Below, piece after piece: positions 23,501 to 64,000 of a stretch of 64,000 bases of DNA (position 1 is its first letter; the number at the start of each line of letters is the position of its first letter). This DNA comes from Cytobacillus firmus. Its GTDB lineage: Bacteria; Bacillota; Bacilli; Bacillales; Cytobacillaceae. The notes below the pieces were generated by a model. That model did no database searches, was not told the DNA's origin, and saw only the letters and a program-made list of their open reading frames with translations. The stretch is from contig NZ_CP086235.1 in NCBI RefSeq assembly GCF_023612095.1, forward strand, positions 1,013,001-1,077,000, in the 5' to 3' direction. A program made the position numbers and the translations under genes.

Positions 23501-23803
23501 GCGGAAGTGCCTTGCCCACGAAGGAACGCAGACTAAGAACGCCACGTCCTGTGGCAACGTCTGCATGACCCCCATCCTGGGGGCCCCAAGCACAAGACGA
23601 GCCTCCCGGAAAGGCGTCCTTTGCCTTTTTGGGAGGATTGTAGGAAATGTGGAGGCGACTGCCCAGGGACGACAGGCATAAGACGGTTCCTGTAAGAAGG
23701 CGTTTTTCCTTCTGAAAGGAAACGGCTTATGACCCCGAGTCCCTAGGAGCCGCAACTAGACAAGCTTGTGACCTCGAGGGGGTAGGCGCTGGAGCTAGAC
23801 AGT
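23501..23803 (+). repeat. Modular hairpin repeat, copy B (with inserted module)
   Basis: The same scaffold as copy A, in the same orientation, but the left arm loop (GTCACCCCCGAC in copy A) is replaced by a 65-base module (23520-23584). The module holds nested stems GCAGAC/GTCTGC and GCCAC/GTGGC, then CCCCC/GGGGG. From 23586 onward the sequence matches copy A almost base for base. It lies directly after ytoI. Confidence 0.85.
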
Positions 23804-38726: not shown

Positions 38727-38917
38727 TAACGGGCAGTAAGCCCCCACTTTAAGACTCAGAGGAACCAAAAGAGGATAAGTGGGGGGCAAACTGCCCGTAA
38801 AGGCCCGAAAAGAAGAACAAAGACTAAGAACGCCACGTCCTGTGGCAATGTCTTTGTGACCCACTTCCTGTGGGCCTCAACTAACAATCAGTGGGGATAA
38901 AGCCCCCCCACTGATTG
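38727..38917. repeat. Hairpin repeat C carrying the same inserted module
   Basis: A GC-rich element in the gap between ytvI and ytwI. A long hairpin (38728-38799) pairs ACGGGCAG with CTGCCCGT and GCCCCCACT with AGTGGGGGGC. It is followed by a module (38811-38875) related to the one inside copy B: CAAAGAC/GTCTTTG, GCCAC/GTGGC and CCCAC/GTGGG. The element ends with a third hairpin CAATCAGTGGGG...CCCCACTGATTG (38885-38917). The outer scaffold differs from copies A, B, D and E. Confidence 0.75.
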
Positions 38918-54706: not shown

Positions 54707-55738
54707 ATGAAGGCGAAAATAGCGATTAATGGTTTTGGAAGAATTGGACGTATGGTTTTTAGAAAAGCCATCCTTGATGAAAATCTTGAAGTGGCTGCCA
54801 TAAATGCAAGCTATCCGGCTGAAACTTTGGCACACTTAATTAAATATGATACAAACCATGGACCATTCGAAGGAAGCGTTGTTCCGGAAGATGATGCTAT
54901 TGTTGTGAACGGTAAAAGAGTTCAGCTTGTCAGCAGCCGGAATCCTGAAGAACTTCCCTGGAAAGAAATGAATATCGATATCGTTATTGAAGCTACAGGA
55001 AAGTTTAATTCCCGTGATAAAGCGGCTCTACATCTTGATGCCGGAGCTAAAAAGGTCATACTTACTGCTCCTGGAAAAAATGAAGATGTGACTATTGTTA
55101 TGGGCGTAAATGAAAGCGCATTAAAAATCGAAGAACATGATATTATTTCAAATGCATCCTGTACAACAAACTGCCTTGCACCTGTTGCAAAAGTCCTTGA
55201 TGAACAATTCGGCATTGAAAACGGACTTATGACAACAGTTCATGCATATACAAATGATCAAAAAAATATTGATAACCCGCATAAGGACCTGCGCCGTGCA
55301 CGTGCTTGCGGACAGTCGATCATCCCGACTTCCACTGGTGCTGCCAAAGCTTTGTCGCTGGTATTGCCTCATTTAAAGGGCAAATTGCATGGAATGGCAC
55401 TGCGTGTGCCAACTCCTAACGTTTCCTTAGTTGACCTCGTGGTAGACTTAAAGCGCGACGTTACAATTGAAGAAGTGAATGCGGCATTCGCAACAGCTTC
55501 ACAAGGGTCTCTGCATGGTATCCTGGATATTACTGACGAACCTTTAGTGTCAATCGATTTCAACACAAATGAACACTCTGCCATCATTGATGGATTATCT
55601 ACTATGGTAATCGGCACCAGCAAAGTGAAAGTGCTTGCCTGGTACGATAATGAGTGGGGCTATTCTTGCCGTGTCGTAGACTTGACAAAATATGTTGCAC
55701 AGGAACTTTTTCAGGCATCTGCCGTAAAGGTTGGATAA
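54707..55738 (+). CDS. gapB: Gluconeogenic glyceraldehyde-3-phosphate dehydrogenase
   Basis: The NADP-preferring GAPDH used for gluconeogenesis. INGFGRIGRMVFRKAIL forms the nucleotide site. The catalytic cysteine is in SNASCTTNCLAPVAKV at about residue 153, with the active-site His in the VHAYTNDQ region. The residue region after the second strand (NASYPAETLA) lacks the acidic NAD-selecting Asp of GapA, in line with NADP use. The length is 343 (B. subtilis GapB 340). The start follows GGAAGGGGCC. CcpN operators upstream and the speD gene downstream match the B. subtilis arrangement. A terminator separates gapB and speD. Confidence 0.95.
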   Translation: MKAKIAINGFGRIGRMVFRKAILDENLEVAAINASYPAETLAHLIKYDTNHGPFEGSVVPEDDAIVVNGKRVQLVSSRNPEELPWKEMNIDIVIEATGKFNSRDKAALHLDAGAKKVILTAPGKNEDVTIVMGVNESALKIEEHDIISNASCTTNCLAPVAKVLDEQFGIENGLMTTVHAYTNDQKNIDNPHKDLRRARACGQSIIPTSTGAAKALSLVLPHLKGKLHGMALRVPTPNVSLVDLVVDLKRDVTIEEVNAAFATASQGSLHGILDITDEPLVSIDFNTNEHSAIIDGLSTMVIGTSKVKVLAWYDNEWGYSCRVVDLTKYVAQELFQASAVKVG

Positions 55739-55778: not shown

Positions 55779-55810
55779 AGCCTGCCATTCCCCGGCAGGC
55801 TCCTTTTATT
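55779..55810 (+). terminator. Terminator after gapB
   Basis: An 8-bp stem AGCCTGCC / GGCAGGCT with a 7-base loop and CCTTTTATT tail. Confidence 0.75.
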
Positions 55811-55877
55811 GGACAAAATTAATCCTGAGAAGGAAAAGTCTTCAGAAATTTTGCCGAAAAAAATGTAAAACAATGTG

Positions 55878-55906
55878 TTGCAAAAAAAAATTAAACAAAG
55901 TATACT
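55878..55906 (+). promoter_or_regulatory. Sigma-A promoter of speD
   Basis: TTGCAA (55878-55883), a 17-base spacer and TATACT (55901-55906). It sets a leader of about 148 bases before the speD start. Confidence 0.75.
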
Positions 55907-55908
55907 AA

Positions 55909-56053
55909 TCCTCGTGAACTTCTCCGAGGTTTTGGTATGGTAGCTACTTAAAGGGTTAGGACCTCTCTGGACTAACTTTCCCCCGTGGTAGTTATAGACC
56001 AGTATAAATCTGGAATTTCATTAATTAATAGCTTAAAAGTTTAAAGGGGGAAA
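55909..56053 (+). ncRNA. Structured speD leader with anti-Shine-Dalgarno segment
   Basis: A candidate cis-regulatory RNA. A 5-bp hairpin CCTCG/CGAGG (55910-55929) comes first. TAGCTACT (55941-55948) pairs with GGTAGTTA (55987-55994), allowing G-U pairs, as a closing helix. An inner 8-bp helix joins AGGGTTAG (55952-55959) and CTAACTTT (55972-55979), with a small loop inside. TTTCCCCC (55977-55984) is exactly complementary to GGGGGAAA (56046-56053), which is the ribosome site of speD. The same three T bases are used by the inner helix, so two forms compete. I do not recognise this as a named family. Confidence 0.6.
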
Positions 56054-56060
56054 TTTGAAT

Positions 56061-56435
56061 ATGGAAACTATGGGTCGTCACGTTATCTCAGAACTTTGGG
56101 GATGCGATTTTGAAAAGTTAAATGATATGGATTTTATTGAGCAGACATTTGTAAATGCTGCATTAAAATCTGGTGCTGAAATTCGCGAGGTTGCATTTCA
56201 TAAGTTTGCGCCACAGGGTGTAAGCGGAGTGGTGATCATCTCTGAATCTCATTTAACTATTCACAGCTTCCCGGAGCATGGCTATGCCAGCATTGATGTG
56301 TATACGTGTGGAGATCTTGACCCTAACATCGCTGCAGACTTTATTGCAGAAGCGTTAGGAGCTCAAACGCGTGAGAATATCGAAATTCCTCGCGGTATGG
56401 GTCCAGTTCAAGTTAAACAAGCTCAAGTACTTTAA
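56061..56435 (+). CDS. speD: S-adenosylmethionine decarboxylase proenzyme
   Basis: Makes decarboxylated SAM, the aminopropyl donor for spermidine. It is the small bacterial class that cleaves itself to form a pyruvoyl cofactor. The cleavage pair is Glu62-Ser63 in [17 protein letters not shown], and the proton donor His68 and Cys in VYTCGDLDP are present. The length of 124 matches (B. subtilis 126). The ATG at 56061 ([12 protein letters not shown]) fits the family and is 10 bases from GGGGG; a TTG at 56055 is too close. The structured leader probably controls its translation. Confidence 0.95.
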
Positions 56436-63789: not shown

Positions 63790-63911
63790 TTTGAGGAAAA
63801 GAAGAAGCACCCGCTTCTCACCTGATTGACGCAAAGCGCAGTTGGCAGGTTTTACGTGAACATTTTCTGTTTATATACGTAAGTGTGGGTGTTTTCATCC
63901 GCACTTTTTTA
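63790..63911 (+). ncRNA. L20-type leader of the infC-rpmI-rplT operon
   Basis: A structured leader rich in conserved pieces: ACCCGCTTCTCACCTGATTG, the CGCAAAGCGCAGTTGGCAGG segment, and a terminator AGTGTGGGTG / CATCCGCACT with T run at 63882-63911. This matches my recollection of the Bacillus infC leader, where L20 binding causes termination. infC itself would lie beyond the window, and its position after thrS is usual in Bacillus. The 89 bases after it hold no gene start. Confidence 0.75.
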
Positions 63912-64000
63912 TTTGGTTAAAACAGCTCTGATTCCGTCACGGAAGAGAAATGTTTCATAACTTGCGATTCAGCTTTGGTCCGGTGCAGCTTACAGCTTTA

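Follow-up and report, generated by a model that had tools for sequence, protein, structure and literature searches.

The speD locus and its leader

The window, that is the whole stretch of 64,000 nucleotides that was analysed, comes from a genome of 4.38 Mb (G000), in which SpeD has mostly Cytobacillus proteins as its closest named relatives. It contains a gene for S-adenosylmethionine decarboxylase, speD, preceded by an ORF for glyceraldehyde-3-phosphate dehydrogenase (54707-55738) which, from its position, we take to be gapB. The features that delimit the speD leader are the following:

55878..55906, + strand: promoter-like sequence, TTGCAA - 17 nt - TATACT (sequence scan)
56061..56435, + strand: speD, S-adenosylmethionine decarboxylase, 124 aa (NCBIfam TIGR03330, 137.6 bits against a cut-off of 75.65)

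A preliminary description of this region had placed a promoter in front of a leader of about 148 bases, and both were recovered. TTGCAA (55878-55883) and TATACT (55901-55906) are separated by a spacer of 17 nt, which is a match and not a proof, 0.5 such sites being expected in shuffled sequences. With a predicted transcription start near 55912 and the ATG at 56061, the leader measures about 148 nt. Among 168 distinct leaders of relatives, 161 have TATACT 35 to 110 nt upstream of the conserved core. No intrinsic terminator pattern was found in 55800-56100, which fits a translational rather than a transcriptional control of speD. The folding energy of the whole leader is ordinary (z 0.02; 92 of 200 shuffles were at least as stable), so that the case for this RNA stands on conservation and covariation, not on stability.

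A conserved element upstream of speD in the Bacilli

In 80 relatives fetched by SpeD similarity, a core of the leader was found almost unchanged between variable flanks. Of 397 genomes from the order of the host, 314 (104 of 135 genera) contained a 35-nt pattern of this core (at most 3 mismatches), with one copy per positive genome in the rows listed; the reversed pattern, used as a control, matched none of the 397. Of the 83 core-negative genomes of the order, 80 were checked: 47 had no SpeD match and 33 had a SpeD-like match, and diverged versions of the element were recognised among the latter (L221, L223-L226, L228 and L232). Replacement by an RNA of the SAM-I type in core-negative genomes was considered and rejected, as no match reached the cut-off in 20 SpeD-gene loci.

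In a draw of 398 genomes over the phylum, the core pattern occurred in 8, all of them within the class. A covariance model (R1), built from 118 core segments (alignment A2, 62 columns), matched 190 of 398 class genomes (88 of 146 genera), and did so in 20 families outside the order. The filters of this search were strict and weak members may be missed; 208 of the 398 genomes, including at least five from the order of the host, went unmatched. In a phylum draw of 249 genomes R1 matched 5, four within the class; the match outside it (G461, E 0.0075) was taken as due to chance, no AdoMet decarboxylase signature being found around it. No match was obtained in phages, and a single one in plasmids, on NZ_CP015439.1 of Anoxybacillus amylolyticus, at a gene annotated speD. 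The element is carried by the B. subtilis group (e.g. L057, L058, L063, L068 and L070). The Bacillaceae, to which the preliminary description had looked for relatives, do carry it, but it reaches well beyond them into other families of the class, and as far as seen the RNA family belongs to the class Bacilli.

The core was present in 213 of 220 loci, and in every one of the 213 a SpeD start, recognised by pattern, follows. Many of the 220 loci were fetched through SpeD and are not independent in this respect; for 78 of them (L143-L220) the RNA pattern served as the query. Seven loci are without the core: L137, a SpeD gene with 73% identity, and L002 and L138-L142, which are more distant second homologues. 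L002 (G000:C1:2393441-2393821) is a second, weaker match to the AdoMet decarboxylase domain in the source genome (54.9 bits, in a frame of 297 residues), devoid of the leader core. The covariance model matched in 75 of 80 further loci, 68 of these (L301-L368) having been fetched by the model. A SpeD start follows by pattern in 72 of the 75, and in L315, L316 and L323 a SpeD start with one changed residue lies downstream of the element. Loci found by the RNA alone and preceding an AdoMet decarboxylase start amount to 146, in a reading that leaves out L271-L300 (class search) and L369-L370 (phylum draw). All six downstream proteins tested, five of them from distant families, were scored as NCBIfam TIGR03330 above cut-off. 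The RNA precedes two divergent SpeD types, with MDTMGRH and MEYSTFGRH starts.

Helices of the leader and their covariation

The preliminary description had proposed two nested helices of 8 bp each. The closing one is real and covaries (P2 below), whereas the inner one had to be redrawn as GGGUUAG/CUAACUU (P3). The set was also incomplete, further helices being P1 and, in Bacillus-type leaders, an outer P0:

55914..55923, + strand: P0 5' strand, GUGAACUUCU, outer helix of Bacillus-type leaders, partner 56012-56021
55933..55936, + strand: P1 5' strand, UGGU, partner 55998-56001
55941..55947, + strand: P2 5' strand, UAGCUAC (covariation)
55953..55959, + strand: P3 5' strand, GGGUUAG (RNAalifold, A3 covariation)
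55962..55970, + strand: P3a, apical hairpin CC-UCUCU-GG (loop of 4 to 6 nt in relatives, L221 and L223)
55972..55978, + strand: P3 3' strand, CUAACUU (RNAalifold, A3 covariation)
55988..55994, + strand: P2 3' strand, GUAGUUA (covariation)
55998..56001, + strand: P1 3' strand, ACCA, partner 55933-55936
56012..56021, + strand: P0 3' strand, GGAAUUUCAU, partner 55914-55923

Three alignments were used. A1 holds 86 leaders, from 98 thinned ones minus 12 with long or unclear 5' parts (L125, L136, L150, L153-L158, L160, L180 and L217). A2 holds the 118 core segments on 62 columns, 19 of 137 distinct segments having been dropped: 12 for a shifted P2 register (L131, L149, L161-L163 and L194-L200), L096, which has one C fewer, and six near-duplicates. 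A3 holds 61 sequences, mostly from distant families; the 75 loci matched by the model minus 5 (L313, L237, L232, L224 and L228) gave 70, which were thinned to 56 and completed with 5 Bacillus-type rows.

On A2, 88.7% of the P2 cells are paired and double changes occur in 5 of the 7 P2 pairs. When all 1711 column pairs were ranked by an APC-corrected G-test, 8-55 and 10-53 of P2 came out at the top (ranks 1 and 2), and the remaining P2 pairs at 9, 60, 551, 822 and 1697. Over the whole structure, 51 double-change cells were counted on A2 against 14.6 +/- 3.2 in shuffles, which ignore relatedness. The number of pairs with double changes is unremarkable on A2 (5 against 3.9 shuffled, reached in 124 of 500) as on A1 (10 against 7.7, reached in 63 of 500), and stands out on A3, relatedness being ignored (13 against 9.6, reached in 1 of 500). 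These 13 are 5 of 5 pairs in P1, 5 of 7 in P2 and 3 of 9 in P3. P1 to P3 have 111 double-change cells on A3 against 37.7 +/- 5.6 in shuffles that likewise ignore relatedness. The covariation score is 0.294, against 0.155 +/- 0.008 shuffled and at most 0.087 for slid structures, a comparison that favours the test structure, as it was drawn from the A3 sequences themselves. RNAalifold gave a poor fold on A3, which was therefore judged with the named structure. We conclude that the P1, P2 and P3 structure is supported by covariation.

P3 as found by RNAalifold includes two G-U pairs. One of them is replaced by G-C in 15 of the 61 diverse relatives of A3, which makes the alternative drawing, AAA/UUU with a GG bulge, less likely. 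The P3 changes scored on A3 were this G-U to G-C exchange (15), A-U to G-U (21), and U-A to G-C in 3 sequences, 4 others being unpaired there. The apical hairpin reads CCAA/UUGG in L225, and the apical part of P3 is unrecognisable in one family (L324-L328). In L313, an insertion of about 50 nt lies in the apical loop, a natural insertion point.

The outer helices vary more between groups. P1, with 72.0% of cells paired on A3, is weak in Bacillus-type leaders, where it reaches p <= 0.05 in 18 of 98. P0 has 78.8% of cells paired on A1, and a helix with an empirical p <= 0.05 was found in 38 of 98 leaders; it is not universal. P0, and P1 in Bacillus-type leaders, are weakly supported. At the 5' end of the leader, a local hairpin CCUCG...CGAGG (window 55910-55929) overlaps P0; it was seen in the window and some close relatives and is absent from most of the 80 loci.

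A C-run in the internal loop mirrors the speD ribosome site

Two further segments of the leader, one in the loop between P2 and P3 and the other in front of the speD start, tend to be conserved jointly:

55979..55984, + strand: anti-Shine-Dalgarno UCCCCC, P2/P3 internal loop (CCCCC conservation)
56046..56050, + strand: speD Shine-Dalgarno GGGGG, proposed pseudoknot partner of CCCCC (GGGGG conservation)

The exact 8-base complementarity reported earlier between 55977-55984 (TTTCCCCC) and 56046-56053 (GGGGGAAA) was confirmed. In dinucleotide shuffles of the leader, TTTCCCCC appeared in 20 of 5000 and CCCCC in 328 of 5000. The competition that had been suggested between the inner helix and exposure of the anti-Shine-Dalgarno is weak: P3 uses UU at 55977-55978 and leaves the U and CCCCC of 55979-55984 free, so that P3 and the pairing with the ribosome site can mostly coexist.

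CCCCC is present in 167 of the 168 distinct leaders, the exception being L096 with CCCC, and GGGGG lies within the 30 nt upstream of the speD start in all 168 (GGGGG in 155, GGGGGG in 13). For comparison, GGGGG was found at -22 to -4 in 30 of 357 host ORFs, and GGAGG in 120; these background ORFs were taken from the window and twenty 20-kb host stretches, with starts chosen by the best ribosome-site match. Both runs were also seen in 74 of the 75 further loci, CCCCC within the element and GGGGG in the stretch from there to the start. The sole exception, L232, has CCCUC and GGUGG, which would pair in part only.

Leaders of genomes negative for the strict core allowed the two runs to be scored separately. 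In 27 such SpeD leaders (30 SpeD loci of core-negative genomes minus three far homologues, L248-L250), both runs were present in 9, neither in 15, GGGGG only in 3 (L222, L229 and L235) and CCCCC only in none. Fisher's test of joint occurrence, which ignores relatedness, gave p 4.7×10−5 for the 27 leaders, 2.7×10−4 without four displaced rows (match starting inside the protein), 1.0×10−3 when two siblings were also removed, relatedness being otherwise ignored, and 0.03 when positives were restricted to the three leaders without a recognisable core (L227, L230 and L237). In these three, CCCCC and GGGGG are kept and the core is changed or unrecognisable; they may be members that have diverged, or may form a second class. 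In most cases the two runs are retained or lost jointly, which, with the conservation of GGGGG before speD, points to pairing in cis. RNAalifold, run on the 86 leaders of A1 with no structure supplied, picked P3 together with UCCCCC:GGGGGA.

The pseudoknot-type layout proposed in the preliminary description therefore stands insofar as the C-run of the loop can cover the speD ribosome site. Compensatory changes in relatives are another matter: P2 and P3 show them, but for CCCCC/GGGGG joint presence or absence was the only signal. No compensatory pair was found in that helix by RNAalifold on A1 (86 leaders), where invariant sites cannot prove pairing.

Comparison with known RNAs

The preliminary description knew of no named RNA family here, and none of the Rfam 15 models matched the leader. 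A gathering scan of the window gave nothing at the speD leader; the matches lay elsewhere, a ribosomal protein L20 leader (RF00558) at 63793-63916 and two Bacillaceae-1 RNAs (RF01690) at 23517-23583 and 38808-38874. A further Bacillaceae-1 RNA (RF01690) was seen in L244, a locus around a SpeD homologue. Scanning 55800-56150 to E 10 yielded two chance eukaryotic or viral matches on the opposite strand, and five distant relatives scanned to E 1 gave no match. With the Rfam 15 models of SAM-I, SAM-II, SAM-III, SAM-V, preQ1-II and preQ1-III, the speD leader was not at or near the gathering cut-off.

In being a conserved, covarying structured RNA upstream of a metabolic gene, the leader shows one general mark of a pseudoknot-type translational riboswitch. 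In switches of the SAM-II and preQ1-II type, a loop pairs with the Shine-Dalgarno sequence of a gene related to the ligand, and the speD leader would resemble them in its proposed pseudoknot layout. It differs in its stacked helices, in the placing of the anti-Shine-Dalgarno in an internal loop and in its conserved core, as well as by the lack of an Rfam match.

Two other RNAs bear on the same pathway. The spermidine riboswitch, as presented in PMC10853860, is a near variant of the SAM-I aptamer, is represented by 13 examples and controls polyamine genes in some Gram-positive genera. It has the SAM-I aptamer architecture, whereas the speD leader has P1-P2-P3 with a C-run loop, and neither this leader nor five distant relatives matched RF00162. 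The SDC motif, according to PMC5640933, is likewise a structured RNA in a SAM decarboxylase mRNA and represses translation; it is fungal. Its authors report, as data not shown, that neither spermidine nor spermine was bound by in-line probing (PMC5640933).

The leader of the same gene in B. subtilis is listed as a transcript in PMC3574147, whose passages on it offer no structure, family, conservation or function. PMC4448311 and PMC2743287 mention speD in other contexts, and PMC4634765 does not name it. No description of the speD leader RNA was found in the open-access literature among the matches listed; an earlier one in subscription papers on B. subtilis leaders is possible. We conclude that the speD leader RNA probably acts as a switch for polyamine synthesis, and one hitherto undescribed.

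A model for the control of speD, and its alternatives

We propose that the speD leader RNA is probably a new class of pseudoknot-type translational regulator, and a riboswitch for a metabolite of the SpeD pathway. P1, P2 and P3 would stack and present the CCCCC of the P2/P3 internal loop to the speD ribosome site, and its pairing with GGGGG would create a pseudoknot and so prevent initiation of translation. A small-molecule signal may bind at the nearly invariant P2/P3 loop region and would shift the balance between the knotted (off) and open (on) states. The signal would most likely be a metabolite of the SpeD pathway, spermidine in the first place, then decarboxylated SAM or SAM. Comparable pseudoknots mostly turn genes off upon binding. 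Since SpeD commits SAM to spermidine, feedback repression of speD by spermidine or decarboxylated SAM is our first guess as to direction.

That a cis-acting speD leader RNA family, present in much of the Bacilli, controls translation through the CCCCC:GGGGG pseudoknot in answer to a SpeD-pathway signal seems to us rather likely on comparative grounds. The narrower version is put forward tentatively: a new riboswitch class, widespread in the Bacilli with the Bacillus subtilis group included, would have spermidine (or decarboxylated SAM) as its ligand and use this pseudoknot to repress the translation of SpeD.

One branch (L334, L315, L336 and similar loci) shows a possible switch. In 27 of 74 outer loci, the P1-side strand UCCUAG is accompanied, by pattern, by CUAGG beside the ribosome site, and 17 of these 27 also have UAGGA on the 5' side of P1 (e.g. 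L334). As the strand UCCUAG is shared, formation of P1 would be incompatible with that of a hairpin beside the ribosome site.

Among the alternatives, the most serious is a leader answering to a protein, SpeD itself or another RNA-binding protein, which closes or opens the ribosome site with no small molecule bound by the RNA. A core that hardly varies would be expected for recognition by a protein just as for a ligand pocket, and in B. subtilis Hfq co-purifies a 79-nt RNA given as 'Unknown or speD leader region' (PMC3574147, Table 2), although the authors hold non-specific association to be likeliest for known regulatory leaders in the same Hfq data. The present data indicate no protein partner, and binding by SpeD would have to survive the divergence of the two SpeD types, so we regard this explanation as unlikely. 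A constitutive structured leader, setting mRNA stability or a fixed low translation rate with no switching, would agree with an anti-Shine-Dalgarno that hardly varies, the switching signal being itself a conjecture; yet it gives no obvious reason for the loop sequence to stay almost the same in 104 genera of the order, and appears improbable. The Hfq co-purification reported in PMC3574147 would also suit a leader, or a piece of it, acting in trans, with the UCCCCC loop as a seed covering the ribosome sites of other mRNAs. That all 168 leaders have GGGGG as speD's own site, compared with 30 of 357 host ORFs, speaks against this reading, as do the joint keeping or loss of CCCCC and GGGGG, which points to cis pairing, and the lack of a terminator pattern after the element. 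C-rich seeds are used by sRNAs of Gram-positive bacteria, which counts in favour of trans action; on balance we give it little credence.

Control by a leader peptide, in which stalling of the ribosome on core frame A (GLGPLWTNFPPW-stop) governs speD, draws on the first stop coming, as counted from the core, after 12 codons in 133 of 168 leaders, and on the core frame joining a conserved GTG in the B. subtilis group (L057). Of 156 substitutions, 93 hit third, 45 first and 18 second codon positions, a leaning to the third; 118 of the 156 sit on two neighbouring variable loop sites. Against it, 102 of the 168 leaders have no in-frame ATG, GTG, TTG or CTG between the upstream stop and the core, a conserved GTG or TTG stands in open frame in 13 of the 135 leaders having it, the window has an in-frame TAG three codons upstream of the core GGG, and some P2 compensations abolish the stop codon (e.g. 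L129 and L136). As a general mechanism it is refuted by the lack of a conserved short ORF with a start codon in those 102 leaders, and we hold it to be very improbable. In L057, a B. tequilensis record, the conserved 5' GTG and the core share one reading frame, 25 codons long and ending in NFPPW-stop; this frame of the B. subtilis group is not kept in most other leaders. Least probable of all is a DNA operator, the imperfect palindrome GTTAG...CTAAC serving as a transcription-factor site just 3' of the promoter. The inverted repeat is near-invariant and lies about 45 nt past the predicted transcription start, but the compensatory exchanges in P1, P2 and P3 fit an RNA and not a double-stranded operator, and led us to reject it; the extra stretch of about 50 nt within the L313 apical loop also fits an RNA.

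Significance

Whether bacteria widely sense polyamines by RNA is an open question, and earlier evidence for such sensing is called unconvincing in the abstract of PMC10853860. The speD leader bears on this question: it belongs to the gene for the enzyme committing SAM to spermidine synthesis, it has hardly changed over 104 genera of a single order, and it can be tested directly in a laboratory strain. If the narrower proposal is true, the leader would be a widespread bacterial polyamine riboswitch with an architecture of its own.
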